Source: Trueperaceae bacterium
GTDB lineage: Bacteria; Deinococcota; Deinococci; Deinococcales; Trueperaceae
NCBI GenBank assembly: GCA_036381035.1
Contig: DASVDQ010000114.1
Location: 1 to 45,578, forward strand
Length of the DNA stretch: 45,578 nucleotides
Direction of reading: 5' to 3'
Of this stretch, positions 21,052-28,147 are shown in pieces. The notes below the pieces were generated by a model. That model did no database searches, was not told where the DNA came from, and saw nothing but the letters and a program-made list of their open reading frames with translations. The position numbers and the translations under genes are program-made. Position 1 is the stretch's first letter. Each line of letters opens with the position of its first letter.

Positions 21052-21792
21052 ATGAACATCTTGGTCAGCGGCGGTCCCGTCCTCGCGGCGATCGTCCTCA
21101 TCTCGCTGTACGCCGTGTACGTCTTCTTCTACAGGTACTTCAGGCTGCGCGCCGAGCGGACCGACACGTCCGACCTGATGGTGAGGGTCAACGCGGCCGT
21201 GCGCGAGCGGGACCTGGAGCTCGCGCTCGCGGCCTGCGAGGAACACGGCGGGCCGGTGGCGCGCGTGCTCGGCGCGGCCCTGATGAAGCTGCCCTACGGG
21301 CGCCCGGCGGTCGAGGCCGCCTTCCAGGAGGCGACGATCCAGGAGGAGCAGACGCTGGCGCGCGGCCTGCGTCCGCTGGCGACGATCGCCCAGGTCTCGC
21401 CCATGTTGGGCCTGCTCGGCACGGTCACCGGCATGATCATCTCGTTCGGGCAGATCTCCCGCTACGGCACGGGCGACCCCTCGGTCGTGGCCTACGGCGT
21501 CCAGCAGGCGCTGGTGACCACGGCCGCCGGCCTGATCGTGGCGATCCCCGTGATCATGGGCCACGCCTACCTCGCCAGCCGCGTCGAGGCGATACTCGTC
21601 GAGATCGACAGGCGCCGCGAGGAGCTGATGGGCAACATCGCGCAGGCCGTGGCCTCGCGGCGCGACGACGCGCAGGCGGCCGAGCGCCAGGCGCGCCCGG
21701 CGCCGACGCCGCGGGTCCAGGGCGAACCCAGGGCCCGCGAGGAGTCCGACGCTCCCAGGCCGCGCCCGATCGACCTCACGCAGGGTGTCTAG
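21052..21792 (+). CDS. exbB: ExbB/TolQ-family proton-channel protein
   Basis: ExbB/TolQ proteins form the pentameric inner-membrane channel that, with ExbD/TolR, turns proton flow into mechanical work on a TonB/TolA-like partner. The 246-residue protein has a first segment (about 8-30), a cytoplasmic domain with VARVLGAALMKL, and the paired segments at about 113-133 (ATIAQVSPMLGLLGTVTGMI) and 152-175 (ALVTTAAGLIVAIPVIMGHA), which carry the polar channel-lining Thr residues. A Pro/Arg-rich tail of about 45 residues is extra. ATG 21052 follows GAGGAG, and a small stem AGCCTC/GAGGCT precedes it. It is the first gene of a tight three-gene operon with exbD and a TonB-like DUF3048 protein. Confidence 0.92.
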   Translation: MNILVSGGPVLAAIVLISLYAVYVFFYRYFRLRAERTDTSDLMVRVNAAVRERDLELALAACEEHGGPVARVLGAALMKLPYGRPAVEAAFQEATIQEEQTLARGLRPLATIAQVSPMLGLLGTVTGMIISFGQISRYGTGDPSVVAYGVQQALVTTAAGLIVAIPVIMGHAYLASRVEAILVEIDRRREELMGNIAQAVASRRDDAQAAERQARPAPTPRVQGEPRAREESDAPRPRPIDLTQGV

Positions 21793-22203
21793 ATGACCGT
21801 CCGCCGCAGCCGGAGGAGGTCGCTCACGGCCAACGCCACCATGGACCTCACCCCCATGGTCGACGTGGTCTTCCTGCTGATCATCTTCTTCATGCTGACG
21901 ACGACCTTCATCACCGTCGAGTCCGGCCTGCCGGTCGACCTGCCGCAGGCGCAGACCGCCCAGGCGGCGACGAGCGACCTGCCGACCGTCACGATCAACG
22001 GCCTGGGCGAGGTGTTCTTCGGCGGCACCAGGGTGGCCGAGAGCGACCTGCCCGGCCTGGTGCGCCAGGCCATCGCGCAGAGCGGGCAGACGTCCGTCGT
22101 GCTGCGAGCCGACAGCGCCACGCCGCACGGCCAGGCCGTGCGGATCATGGACTACCTGCGCCAGGCCGGCGCCGAGCGCATCGTCATCGCGACGGGCGAC
22201 TGA
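21793..22203 (+). CDS. exbD: ExbD/TolR-family biopolymer transport protein
   Basis: The 136-residue protein has a short basic N-terminus. One membrane helix (about 22-40) begins MDLTPMVDVVFLLIIFFM, with Asp24 the conserved proton-carrying residue of the family. A periplasmic domain follows, with PTVTINGLGEVFFGGT and VVLRADSATPHGQAVRIMDY (the usual D-x-x-x-x-x-G segment). Its ATG directly follows the exbB stop codon, so stoichiometric coupled translation is likely. With ExbB it should form the proton-driven stator. The next gene, 9 bases on, supplies the driven partner. Assignment to ExbD rather than TolR cannot be decided by sequence alone. Confidence 0.92.
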   Translation: MTVRRSRRRSLTANATMDLTPMVDVVFLLIIFFMLTTTFITVESGLPVDLPQAQTAQAATSDLPTVTINGLGEVFFGGTRVAESDLPGLVRQAIAQSGQTSVVLRADSATPHGQAVRIMDYLRQAGAERIVIATGD

Positions 22204-22212
22204 GGGGCGGCC

Positions 22213-24234
22213 ATGGTCGGGAGGGAGTCGAGCGTGTGGCGGGACCCCGACAAGCGGCGCGCGGCGCTGCTGTCGCTGGTGCTGCACCTCTCGGCGCTGC
22301 TCCTGATCCTCTACGTGGTCACGCGCCCCCAGCCGAGGCCGGTGCCCAGCTTCATCGTCATCGAGGTGGGCACGCCCGCCGAGTCCGAGCAGTACACCGA
22401 GGCCGCCGCGGCCGAGGAGCCGACGGTCGAGGCCCCGGAGCCGCAGGTGCGGTCCGCGGAGGCCGGGGACCCGCAGGCTCTGGCTGCGCCGCAGCAGGAG
22501 ACGGCCGACGAGGAGCTCGACCAGGTGACGGTCCAGCCGCCGGCGCCGGAGGCGCCGCCCGCCGTCGCGGCGGCGCCCGAGGAACCGCCGGTCGAGGCCG
22601 CGGTCGCGCCGCCGCCCCCGCCGCGTCCCCAGGAGGTAGCCGCCGCGGCGCCGGAGCTGCCCGTCGCCGAGGCGCCGGCCAGCCAGCTACCCGAGGTGGA
22701 GCTCGAGGTCCTGCCGAACCGTGAGACCCCGGCCCCCGTGACGATCCCCGAGCCGCAGCTCCAGGCGCAGGTGACCGAGTCGCGGGCGCTGGCGCTGGCG
22801 CCCTCCGCGAGCACGGCCCAGGCCCGCGAGGTGACGGCACCCGACGCGACGGCCGCCGTGGCCGAGCCCGTGGACCTGCGCGCGCCCAGCGTCGACGCCA
22901 GCGTCGCCTCGACGGTGCCCGTGGCCGCGCCGGAGGTCAGCGCCGCCGTGGCCGAGGCCGTCCCCCTCGACGCCAGCCGCGTCGGCGCCGCGGTGTCCGC
23001 GCCGGTGAGCCTGGCGGCGCCCGGCGTCACGGCCAGCGTCTCCGGCACCCGTCGCCTGGCGGAGCCGAGCGTGAGCGCCGTCGTCGGCGCCGGCGTGCCG
23101 CTCGACGTGACGCCCTCGGTGCGGGTGGCGAACCCGCGCCCGCTGGAGGCGCCGCGGCTCCGCGCCACGGTCAGGGGCCAGCAGGCGCCCGGCGCCCCGC
23201 AGCAGGGCGCGGTGGCCGAGGGCGCGGCCGACGTGCGCGCGACCGTCGAGTCGCCGCGCCAGCCCGGCGGCAACGCGATCAACCCGGGACAGGCCGGCCC
23301 GCCCGACCCCGACGCGACGGTGGCCGCGCGCGGCCTGGCCGCCGGTCCCGATGGCGTCGGCGAGGGCGACGGTGCCCGCCGACCGCCGTCCCCGCCGCCC
23401 ATGGCCGAGCAGCGCGACAGGGCGCTGGCGGTGGTGATCGACAACGCCAACGGCTACCCGCAGAGCGGCCTGGCGCAGTCGAGCATGGTCGTCGAGATGC
23501 CCGTGGAGGGCGGCATCACCCGGCTCCTGGCGTTCTTCGACTCCCAGGACCCGCAGCGTGTCGGGCCCGTCCGCAGCGCCCGGCCGTACTTCGTCGACCT
23601 CGCCCAGCGCAGCCAGGCCGTGCTCGTCCACGACGGCGGCTCGCCGGACGCGATGGTCAGGATCGCGCGCGCGACCGTGCCCACGCTCAACGCCTACACG
23701 TCCGGAGACCTGTTCGCGCGCTCGGACGAGCGCTCGGCGCCTTACAACCTCTACTCGGCAGGCTCCGACCTCAGGCAGGCCGTGAACCGCATCGCCCCCG
23801 AGCGGGTCCGGCTCGTCGCCAGGGCCGTCTACAGCCCGTCAGAGGAGGCGCGCGGCGTGGCCGAGGTGACCGTCAGCTACGGCGCCTACACGTCAGGCTT
23901 CCGCTTCAACGAGACCACCGGCCGCTACCGCTGGGTGCGCGCCGGCGAGCCGGCGGTGCAGCCAGACGGCCAGGTGCTGGAGACCCAGGCGGTGCTGGTC
24001 GGCGACATCCAGGTCGCGCCGATCCCCGACGACGACGCCGGGCGTCTCTACATACCGCTCGAGGGCGGGCCCGCCACCCTCTACCTCTCCGGACGCGCCG
24101 TCGACGGCACCTGGGAGGTCGTTGACGGCAGCGGCATAGGCTTCGTGAGCGAGTCTGGCCAGCGCATCGACCTGGCCGGCTACAGGACCTGGGTGGTCCT
24201 CAGCCCGAACTACGAGACGCGCGCCGAGCGCTGA
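22213..24234 (+). CDS. TonB-like energy transducer with a C-terminal DUF3048 (YerB-like) domain
   Basis: The 673-residue protein is built in three parts. First is a short cytoplasmic tail and one membrane helix (about 17-36, RAALLSLVLHLSALLLILYV) with Ser21 and His25, the SxxxH motif by which TonB and TolA couple to ExbBD/TolQR. Second is a ~360-residue Pro/Ala/Glu-rich periplasmic linker, including eight 15-residue repeats (about 209-323). Third is a DUF3048 domain (about 402-673) starting LAVVIDNANGYPQSGLAQSS, then VEGGITRLLAFF, RVGPVRSARPYFVDLAQ and VHDGGSPDAM, with a DUF3048_C-like end (GRLYIPLEGGPATLY to AGYRTWVVLSPNY). TonB or TolA C-terminal domains are absent. DUF3048 is known to me mainly from lipoproteins such as Bacillus YerB, of unknown function. 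ATG 22213 follows exbD by 9 bases. I infer a force-transducing envelope protein; its ligand is unknown. Confidence 0.85.
   Translation: MVGRESSVWRDPDKRRAALLSLVLHLSALLLILYVVTRPQPRPVPSFIVIEVGTPAESEQYTEAAAAEEPTVEAPEPQVRSAEAGDPQALAAPQQETADEELDQVTVQPPAPEAPPAVAAAPEEPPVEAAVAPPPPPRPQEVAAAAPELPVAEAPASQLPEVELEVLPNRETPAPVTIPEPQLQAQVTESRALALAPSASTAQAREVTAPDATAAVAEPVDLRAPSVDASVASTVPVAAPEVSAAVAEAVPLDASRVGAAVSAPVSLAAPGVTASVSGTRRLAEPSVSAVVGAGVPLDVTPSVRVANPRPLEAPRLRATVRGQQAPGAPQQGAVAEGAADVRATVESPRQPGGNAINPGQAGPPDPDATVAARGLAAGPDGVGEGDGARRPPSPPPMAEQRDRALAVVIDNANGYPQSGLAQSSMVVEMPVEGGITRLLAFFDSQDPQRVGPVRSARPYFVDLAQRSQAVLVHDGGSPDAMVRIARATVPTLNAYTSGDLFARSDERSAPYNLYSAGSDLRQAVNRIAPERVRLVARAVYSPSEEARGVAEVTVSYGAYTSGFRFNETTGRYRWVRAGEPAVQPDGQVLETQAVLVGDIQVAPIPDDDAGRLYIPLEGGPATLYLSGRAVDGTWEVVDGSGIGFVSESGQRIDLAGYRTWVVLSPNYETRAER
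22837..23181 (+). repeat. 15-residue (45-base) tandem repeats in the TonB-like linker
   Basis: Ala-Pro (or Ala-Ser/Glu-Pro) recurs at residues 209, 224, 239, 254, 269, 284, about 299 and 313. The unit reads roughly AP-x-V-x-A-x-V-A-x-x-V-P-L-x. Alternating small and valine residues suggest an extended or beta-like rod rather than a helix. Confidence 0.8.
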
Positions 24235-25281: not shown

Positions 25282-26064
25282 GTGGACGACCACGGGAGCT
25301 CGCAGGCGGAGTGGGTGGACAGGACCGACGAGGTCGCGTCGCGCATGGAGGCGCTCAGCCAGGCCCTGGCGGACGAGCGCGCGCGGCGCTCCGCGGGCGG
25401 CGGGACGTTCGCGCCGCCCGCGGAGGCCGAGGAGGGCCGCGTCGTGGGCCTCGCGGTCCTGGCCGCGGTGGTCGCTGCCGAGGCGGAGGAGTTCTTCGGC
25501 CCGCTCAACGAGACCTGCCGCGGCTTCGACATCACCACCCCGCTGCGCATCGCCCACTTCCTGGCGCAGACGGCGCACGAGTCCGCCCTCTACACGGTCC
25601 TCGTCGAGAACCTCAACTACAGCGCTCGCGGCCTGCTCGCCACCTGGCCGCGGCGCTTCGACGCGGCGCGCGCCGAGGCGTACGCGCGCCAGCCCGAGCG
25701 GATCGCGAACTACGTCTACGCCGACAGGATGGGCAACGGGCCGGAGGCGTCGGGCGACGGCTGGCGCTTCCGCGGACGCGGCATCCTCCAGGTGACGGGG
25801 AGGCAGACGTACCGCGACGTGGGCGGGTCCCTCGGCGTCGACCTCGAGGCCGCGCCCGACCTGCTGGCGACCCCGCGCTTCGCGTCCCTCGCGGCGGGCT
25901 GGTACTGGCGGTCGCGCGGCATCAACGCCCTCTGCGACCGCGACGACCCGGTCGCCGTCACGGAGGCCGTGAACGGCGGACGGCACGGCCTCGAGGAGCG
26001 CATCAGGCTGCTGGGGCTGGCCAAGGCGGCGTTGAGCGCCCCCGACCCCGACGTGCAGGCGTGA
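25282..26064 (+). CDS. Phage-type GH19 lysozyme/chitinase-like protein
   Basis: The 260-residue protein has a family 19 glycoside hydrolase domain of the phage endolysin type, expected to cut peptidoglycan or chitin beta-1,4 bonds. The catalytic helix IAHFLAQTAHESALYTVLVE (90-109) places the acid Glu at 100. Further signatures are LNYSARGLLATWPRRF, FRGRGILQVTGRQTYRDVG, AGWYWRSRGINALCD and VTEAVNGGRHGLEERI. About 70 N-terminal residues lack a domain and contain an Ala-rich stretch (52-70), not a clear signal peptide. If it acts on the wall it must leave the cell by another route. GTG 25282 follows AGGAGG. There are no phage genes around it, so it is probably domesticated. Confidence 0.85.
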   Translation: MDDHGSSQAEWVDRTDEVASRMEALSQALADERARRSAGGGTFAPPAEAEEGRVVGLAVLAAVVAAEAEEFFGPLNETCRGFDITTPLRIAHFLAQTAHESALYTVLVENLNYSARGLLATWPRRFDAARAEAYARQPERIANYVYADRMGNGPEASGDGWRFRGRGILQVTGRQTYRDVGGSLGVDLEAAPDLLATPRFASLAAGWYWRSRGINALCDRDDPVAVTEAVNGGRHGLEERIRLLGLAKAALSAPDPDVQA

Positions 26065-26986: not shown

Positions 26987-28147
26987 TCAGCGCTGCGCCG
27001 TGGCCTCGAGGAGCGGCAGCGGGTCGACGGTGTCGCCGGCCACCCTGACCTCGAAGTGGAGGTGGGAGCCGGTCGAGTTGCCGGTGCTCCCGACCAGCGC
27101 GATCGTGTCCCCGGCCGCGACCACGTCGCCGACGTTCACCAGCACCTCGGACGCGTGAGCGTAGTAGTACTCGGTGTCGCCGTCCTCGACGATGACGAGG
27201 TAGCCGTAGCCGCCGTACCAGCCCGCGTAAGTGACGGTGCCGGGCGCGGCGGCGACCACCGGGTCGCCGGTGTGGCCGTCGATGTCGACGCCGCCGTGCC
27301 AGTTCGAGCCGTTGATGCGCAGCGACCGGTAGCCGTAGCGGGAGGTGATGGTGCCGACGAGCGGCCAGATCAGGCCGGTCACGGCGGGCGGCGTGGCCGC
27401 GTCGCCGGTGACGGCGCGTCCCGCCGCGATCTCGTTGCCCGGCACGATGCGGAGCTGCTGGCCGGCGAAGATGCGCTCGCTCTTCAGGCCGTTGGCGCTC
27501 ATGATCGCGGCCACCGTCGTGTTGTGGGCCCGCGCCAGCGTCCACAGGGTCTCGCCCTTCTGGACGGTGACGGTCTGGGCGACGGCGCCGCCGACGTCGC
27601 GTCCGCCGGCGGCGTACTGGCCGGGCACGACCAGGCGGTGGCCCGGGTTGATGACCGTGGCGAGGGTGATGCCGTTGGCGTCGGCGATGGCCTGCGGGGT
27701 GGTGCCGTAGGCGCGCGCTATCGACCAGAGGCTGTCGCCCGGCATGACCTCGACGACGAGCGGCTCGAGCGCCTTGTCGCCGGCGTCGAGCCGCAGCACC
27801 TGCCCGGGGTGGATCAGGGTGCCGTCGAGGTCGTTGAAGGCGATGAGGTCGGAGACGCTGACCCCGTGCGCCAGCGCGATGTCGTAGAGCGTGTCACCGG
27901 CCTGGACGGTGACGGTGCGCGCCGGCGCCGCGGGCGCCGCGCTCCCCGGGAGCCGGAGGACCTGGCCCGGCCTGATCTGGTCGCCGGTGAGGCCGTTGAG
28001 CTCCTTGAGCGTCGCGACGTCGGTACCCGCTCGCTGCGCGATGCTCCAGAGGGTGTCGTGTGGTTGGACCGTTACCGATTGGGCGTAGGCAACCGAGGTC
28101 GCCAAGGCACAGAGGCAGAGGAGGGGAAGGAGGCGCCCGGCTGACAT
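26987..28147 (-). CDS. Secreted M23 peptidoglycan endopeptidase with four LysM domains
   Basis: The 386-residue protein starts with a signal peptide (about 1-23, ending VAYAQ). Four LysM repeats (about 24-68, 77-121, 125-168 and 178-222) follow, each with the GDTL/GDSL/GETL-W/Y core that binds glycan GlcNAc. A C-terminal M23 domain (about 255-380) has HGGVDIDGHTGDPVVAAAPG, YYYAHASEV and GSTGNSTGSHLHFEV. The zinc ligands (His and Asp of HxxxD, and HxH of HLHFE) are present, so it could be active, although many LysM-M23 proteins are EnvC/NlpD-like regulators. ATG 28147 has a TATCTT box 8 bases upstream. It probably remodels the wall outside the inner membrane, and the phosphoesterase gene follows. 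Confidence 0.93.
   Translation of the reverse strand: MSAGRLLPLLCLCALATSVAYAQSVTVQPHDTLWSIAQRAGTDVATLKELNGLTGDQIRPGQVLRLPGSAAPAAPARTVTVQAGDTLYDIALAHGVSVSDLIAFNDLDGTLIHPGQVLRLDAGDKALEPLVVEVMPGDSLWSIARAYGTTPQAIADANGITLATVINPGHRLVVPGQYAAGGRDVGGAVAQTVTVQKGETLWTLARAHNTTVAAIMSANGLKSERIFAGQQLRIVPGNEIAAGRAVTGDAATPPAVTGLIWPLVGTITSRYGYRSLRINGSNWHGGVDIDGHTGDPVVAAAPGTVTYAGWYGGYGYLVIVEDGDTEYYYAHASEVLVNVGDVVAAGDTIALVGSTGNSTGSHLHFEVRVAGDTVDPLPLLEATAQR

Follow-up and report, generated by a model that had tools for sequence, protein, structure and literature searches.

The closest described relatives of the system discussed here are TonB-ExbB-ExbD and TolA-TolQ-TolR (Tol-Pal), for which electron cryo-microscopy of the E. 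coli proteins revealed that ExbB or TolQ is touched by two residues of the SHLS motif, its Ser and its His (PMC12215075). The D-box of TonB is a beta strand that is captured by the ExbD dimer (PMC10907165). Pal is confined to Gracilicutes, and OmpM-type tethering is found in diderm Terrabacteria including Deinococcota (PMC10628300). A further point of comparison is provided by the DUF3048 proteins such as YerB of B. subtilis, a family that is widespread (Bacillota, Patescibacteria, Atribacterota, and some Deinococcota) and has no known function. We analyzed a 45,578-nucleotide stretch of DNA from a Trueperaceae bacterium (contig DASVDQ010000114.1, hereafter the window), in which exbB and exbD are followed by the gene of a DUF3048-headed transducer. 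The coupling of this DUF3048 protein to ExbBD is well supported by the gene order and motifs described below, the link to a motor provides a testable handle on the family, and the analysis as a whole suggests that a machine not described before applies force to the cell wall.

The operon is located on the plus strand. exbB (21052..21792) encodes 246 aa (Pfam MotA_ExbB, 6.7e-28, 97.4 bits against a cut-off of 22.9), exbD (21793..22203) encodes 136 aa (Pfam ExbD, 7.6e-30, 104 bits against a cut-off of 25.4), and the third gene (22213..24234) encodes a protein of 673 aa composed of one N-terminal transmembrane (TM) helix, a long linker, and a C-terminal DUF3048 head. The cut-offs are the Pfam gathering scores, which all four domain matches in the operon exceed. 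An earlier interpretation of the window from its letters alone (the sequence-only reading) had described an exbB, an exbD with Asp24, and a 673-residue protein as tightly spaced genes; the order, coordinates, and spacings of 0 and 9 bases were re-read as claimed, as were the Asp and the length of the third protein, and the Pfam matches bear out the two motor names. ExbB contains the TM1 segment LISLYAVYVFF and the pore/TM3 segment TTAAGLIVAIP, the latter also kept in relatives, with the conserved Thr/Pro of ExbB/TolQ pore helices present. The membrane Asp24 of ExbD, whose codon was read at 21862..21864 of the plus strand, sits in DLTPMVDVVF and, by analogy, would be the counterpart of E. coli TolR Asp23 in its role (PMC12215075). 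Among NCBIfam models, TolQ and TolR score best for the two motor proteins, both below the cut-off. A scan for promoters and terminators found none. The genome from which the window derives is 96% complete and possesses a single ExbB, a single ExbD, and a single DUF3048 protein, all of them within this operon.

The head of the third protein consists of a DUF3048 N-terminal domain (PF11258, aa 399-525, 23407..23787, plus strand; 2e-36, 125.8 bits) and a DUF3048_C domain (PF17479, aa 552-661, 23866..24195, plus strand; 3e-10, 40.8 bits), and Pfam reports only these two domains on the protein and no TolA C-terminal domain. In the PDB, phmmer gives 2psb, the structure of YerB from B. subtilis, as the best sequence match (E 6e-27). 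The head was modeled with AlphaFold2 on the basis of 26 sequences from the window and the loci; the model has a mean predicted local distance difference test score (pLDDT) of 92.6 and is similar to 2psb in both Foldseek (E 2e-24) and VIA-align (Z 33.3, root-mean-square deviation 2.2 over 267 residues). Nothing beyond 2psb rises above noise in the PDB fold search with these two programs, the next best match being IF2 with a Z of 3.6. The Pfam matches together with the predicted YerB fold rule out an ordinary TonB or TolA head, in agreement with the sequence-only reading, which had assigned the C-terminal region to DUF3048 and DUF3048_C and had set it apart from the TonB and TolA C-terminal domains. 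An enzyme fold for DUF3048 was also considered and found no PDB match besides YerB above noise, an absence that is not proof.

The pairing of this head with exbBD recurs across genomes. Our survey of Deinococcota comprised 61 genomes of the order of the window, grouped in families, of which f1 is the Trueperaceae. The genes for ExbD and the anchored DUF3048 protein are adjacent in Trueperaceae and in the sister family f3 wherever both share a contig, gene calling in these families gives the order exbB-exbD-DUF3048, and both genes are present in single copy. Some draft genomes of the two families (e.g. G008 and G055) lack one of the genes or carry the two on separate contigs. Outside Deinococcota, genome contigs were searched with a profile made from the head alignment, and 80 loci were kept. 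The arrangement exbB-exbD-DUF3048 is present in 7/7 Atribacteria loci, and no exbBD was found in the stretch fetched for the remaining loci from outside Deinococcota, most of them Bacillota and Patescibacteria, in which the N-termini of the DUF3048 proteins are lipobox-like or carry other membrane anchors. Across 50 Atribacterota genomes, ExbD is encoded directly upstream of 38/44 long DUF3048 genes, and the remaining 6 are at contig ends; some of these genomes also encode a second, shorter DUF3048 protein with no ExbD nearby. The recurring adjacency in Deinococcota and Atribacterota genomes rules out chance or an assembly artefact as the origin of the arrangement. That the genes are neighbors without a functional link, through a chance operon or hitch-hiking, is hardly credible, because the same adjacency is seen in two phyla, no genome has the genes separated on intact contigs, and a motor-type anchor is found on the DUF3048 protein exactly where exbBD is present.

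Some Atribacterota possess a separate exbBD-TonB_C-receptor cassette besides the DUF3048 cassette, and in Halanaerobiales exbBD is accompanied by a TonB_C protein while DUF3048 is located elsewhere. These arrangements indicate that the DUF3048 motor stands as a unit of its own rather than as a degraded Ton system. In a tree of the heads, Deinococcota and Atribacterota form separate clades (support of 100 each) over a backbone with supports of 21-34; the backbone being unresolved, one and two origins of the ExbBD-DUF3048 pairing are not separable.

The anchor of the window protein is a transmembrane helix (aa 18-36, 22264..22320, plus strand; hydropathy 2.57) without a lipobox cysteine. Inside it is situated a Ser21-x3-His25 motif (Ser21 at 22273-22275 and His25 at 22285-22287, plus strand), which the sequence-only reading had equated with the motif by which TonB and TolA contact their motors. 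The spacing is as stated, and 28/28 anchors from Trueperaceae, that of the window protein among them, have Ser-x3-His. The corresponding motif is Ser-x3-Asn in 7/7 Atribacterota anchors; His20 of TonB is said, in the title of a 2011 paper by Swayne and Postle (cited in PMC8928145), to be fully replaceable by Asn. The helix is followed by SFIVIEVGTPA (aa 46-56, 22348..22380, plus strand), a candidate D-box that takes the form xYLVIDLGTPA or near forms in most Trueperaceae and forms such as LILVSLVEIP in Atribacterota, where ILVSLVE matches 6/7 D-box positions in a count by eye. The linker of ~340 aa (22384..23400, plus strand) is rich in Pro, Ala, Glu, and Val by composition; linkers measure 281-487 aa in Deinococcota and ~175 aa in Atribacterota. 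Autocorrelation detects ~6 degenerate 15-residue repeats (APSVDASVASTVPVA and so on; 22837..23106, plus strand), the hydrophobic autocorrelation at 15 aa being 0.32 against 0.22 for 99% of shuffles. We also note that the repeats alternate hydrophobic positions and faintly resemble serial D-box-like strands, and that a period of 15 (or 14, 29, 30) is observed in many Trueperaceae homologues and absent in the sister family.

The search for partners of the known systems was negative in the window genome. TonB_C is missing there and from 60/61 genomes of the order, the plug of TonB-dependent transporters (TBDT) is missing there and from 59/61, and the OmpA domain characteristic of Pal is missing there and from 53/61, while no search was made for TolB. 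The missing OmpA domain agrees with the distribution of Pal in PMC10628300. As the window genome has a single motor and lacks TonB_C, the TBDT plug, and the OmpA domain, there is no competition for the motor from a known partner. Neither Ton nor Tol-Pal accounts for the window motor, the parts of which belong to ExbBD/TolQR motors and to the DUF3048 family. The TBDT and TonB_C matches in the 61 genomes are limited to G020:C302, G020:C176, and G023:C349, which belong to two draft genomes, both fragmented, so that contamination may be one explanation.

A divergent Ton system, in which the DUF3048 head contacts an unrecognized outer-membrane transporter and energizes nutrient import, would share the plan of ExbBD, Ser-His anchor, and Pro-rich linker (PMC12215075). 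We regard it as quite improbable, given that the window genome has neither TonB_C nor a receptor plug and stray plug matches occur in 2/61 genomes, that the head has the YerB fold rather than that of TonB_C and is also found in monoderms, which have no outer membrane, and that a classical exbBD-tonB-receptor cassette coexists with the DUF3048 cassette in some Atribacterota. A strictly Tol-like machine, the head of which acts in constriction on an SlpA/OmpM-type outer-membrane tether and not on the wall, fits the restriction of Pal to Gracilicutes and the OmpM tethering of diderm Terrabacteria (PMC10628300) as well as the scarcity of OmpA domains in the order, and the long linker could span to the outer membrane. 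This alternative is nonetheless unlikely, since the residues of the head are equally conserved in Bacillus-type lipoproteins without an outer membrane and there is no TolA-like head.

Conservation of the head was examined in 100 DUF3048 domains (32 from Deinococcota, 7 from Atribacterota, and 61 others), numbered as in the first sequence of A1. E31, E35, R40, G54, P55, R57, R60, Y62, and W237 are invariant, and N14, S58, S80, R106, P113, N115, D210, R214, and W263 are nearly so. Of these, E31, E35, R40, R57, S58, R60, Y62, S80, R106, and N115 belong to the DUF3048 N-terminal domain, and D210, R214, W237, and W263 to DUF3048_C. These residues are common to monoderm lipoproteins and motor-borne heads, hence the ligand should exist in both kinds of cell, and a wall component would be the simplest candidate. 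The sequence-only reading had named the outer membrane, S-layer, and peptidoglycan as possible sites of action, and the conservation pattern would narrow these toward the cell wall. The near-invariant set of Glu, Arg, Ser, and Asn could also be read as belonging to a wall-acting enzyme or enzyme regulator, which ExbBD mainly positions or switches instead of pulling. One Trueperaceae genome with the exbBD operon also encodes a trypsin-like (HtrA-type) protease fused to an extra DUF3048 (L063:3086-4894, minus strand); the fusion speaks for this alternative, being consistent with a targeting or regulatory function of the DUF3048 module. We consider the enzyme alternative rather unlikely in view of the missing fold match to a known enzyme above noise and the replacement of His76 by Ala in 12/61 proteins of other phyla.

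The reading that we favor, and consider probable, is a dedicated machine of the Ton/Tol kind that is driven by the proton motive force and acts through its DUF3048 head on a wall ligand. ExbB and ExbD would form the inner-membrane motor, on which the third protein would dock by its Ser-x3-His helix and probably also by the D-box-like strand outside the membrane. The Pro-rich linker would span the periplasm and present the YerB-fold head. Proton flow via ExbBD, gated by tension or by engagement of the head, would move the linker, so that the head pulls or remodels a cell-wall ligand, which may be peptidoglycan or a wall-bound polymer or enzyme. In bacteria without Pal, such a machine may help to coordinate the thick wall with the outer membrane. 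We infer physical coupling, force transmission, the wall ligand, and the physiological role from the genomic evidence. The linkage of the genes, their single copies, and the motifs for coupling thus speak for the proton-driven machine with a DUF3048 working end that the sequence-only reading had envisaged. None of the three outcomes that it had named as refuting was observed, since the DUF3048 match is strong, the predicted fold is that of YerB, and the anchor motif is kept in Trueperaceae and, with Asn for His, in Atribacterota. Its remark that no system of this architecture had been described also stands provisionally, as none was found in a search of the open-access literature. In open-access full text, 'DUF3048' appears only in a lipoproteome list without a function, with most subscription journals and all preprints outside the coverage, and a whole-word search of the open-access literature for YerB returned list-type mentions only, e.g. 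in a list of sporulation genes.

Several observations weigh against this reading. Four proteins of the sister family (L057-L060) possess neither S-x3-H nor S-x3-N, and the anchor motif that the sequence-only reading relied on therefore does not extend to them; the TM1 serine of ExbB is also a threonine where the motif is lost, a covariation that is suggestive in a small sample. Of the full SHLS motif, the window protein does not match the Leu and the second Ser, having I32 and V36 there, and its IVIEVGTP fits the D-box only in part, with 5/7 positions in a count by eye. OmpA domains are found in many Atribacterota, which limits the argument from a missing Pal to Deinococcota. The conserved head residues could be catalytic instead of binding. 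Two gene neighbors speak for the favored reading, but with caveats: 18 other Trueperaceae loci carry, ~0.8-1.4 kb downstream and in the opposite orientation, a gene for a LysM-M23 endopeptidase, which may be mere synteny, and the tetratricopeptide repeats (TPR) of an Atribacterota protein score over the tol_pal_ybgF cut-off, a weak basis for a YbgF label because TPR families cross-match.

The TPR protein, of 1000-1200 aa, is encoded directly upstream of exbB in Atribacterota (L088:669-4256, L098:73-3708, L107:300-3953, and others). A CsgG/TolB-N identity for its N-terminus was rejected, the Pfam match to CsgG being at most sub-threshold. A linkage to FtsE was rejected likewise: an ATP-binding cassette ATPase cluster is FtsE-like, by reading, only in L052, and the others resemble phosphate, phosphonate, or other transporters. 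In the window itself, a GH19-type glycoside hydrolase gene (25282-26061, plus strand) and a LysM-M23 endopeptidase gene (26987-28147, minus strand) are located less than 4 kb from the operon, the latter at a greater distance than in the 18 other loci.

Other Deinococcota combine a related motor with a different head. Families f2 and f5 and some f4 genomes contain an exbBD operon with an [ST]-x3-H anchor and a head of ~115 aa (VVDARGL...PAILDPSGxxVWP) that has no Pfam match, as at L065:4002-4382 (minus strand), L157:1492-1878, and L160:1483-1869. The alternative head was found in 14/111 genomes of the order, none of them Trueperaceae or members of the sister family. Its gene is followed by that of a conserved secreted-looking protein, also without a Pfam match. 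A model of the alternative head (pLDDT 85.7) has a weak fold match to part of Treponema Tp0624 (5jir; E 9.5e-3, TMq 0.62), an envelope protein that bears an OmpA-like domain (PMC5104382). In an ExbB+ExbD tree, which is small (31 taxa) and rooted only on TonB-type motors, the alternative-head and DUF3048 motors split from the TonB-type motors, and the Trueperaceae motors stand beside a group that joins the alternative-head motors to those of f3 (support 84). On the simplest reading of this tree, DUF3048 would be the earlier head in Deinococcota and would have been replaced later. The head swap between families allows a direct comparison. A bolder extension, which we offer tentatively and think less probable than its negation, is that the system represents a third class of Exb/Tol-type energized machine, of ancient standing in some diderm lineages, with DUF3048 pulling directly on the wall. 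The YerB lipoproteins would then be its counterparts without a motor, and the remaining Deinococcota would have kept the motor under an exchanged head.

Two distantly related diderm groups dedicate to a DUF3048 protein a type of proton motor that usually serves nutrient uptake or the upkeep of the outer membrane. The presence of such a dedicated motor may bear on how diderm Terrabacteria, which lack Pal, coordinate wall and outer membrane. Compared with TonB-ExbB-ExbD, the window system shares the ExbBD-type motor, the single-helix Ser-x3-His anchor, and the Pro-rich linker, and has a candidate D-box-like strand that fits in part; it differs in that DUF3048 takes the place of TonB_C as the head and that the genome yielded no TonB-dependent receptor. 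With Tol-Pal it has in common the motor homology, the Ser-His anchor, and a likely part in envelope upkeep, whereas it is without a TolA head and without a Pal/OmpA domain in the genome, TolB not having been searched for. The exbBD operons of f2, f4, and f5 have a related motor and an anchor of the RRA-x-LL-[ST]-x3-H type; their ~115-aa head without a Pfam match is in contrast to the DUF3048 head of the window. The YerB/DUF3048 lipoproteins (2psb) have the same head fold and near-invariant residues, but they take the form of lipoproteins on a short tether or of TM proteins, with no exbBD next to their genes, while the window protein combines the head with a motor-type anchor and a linker of ~340 aa.

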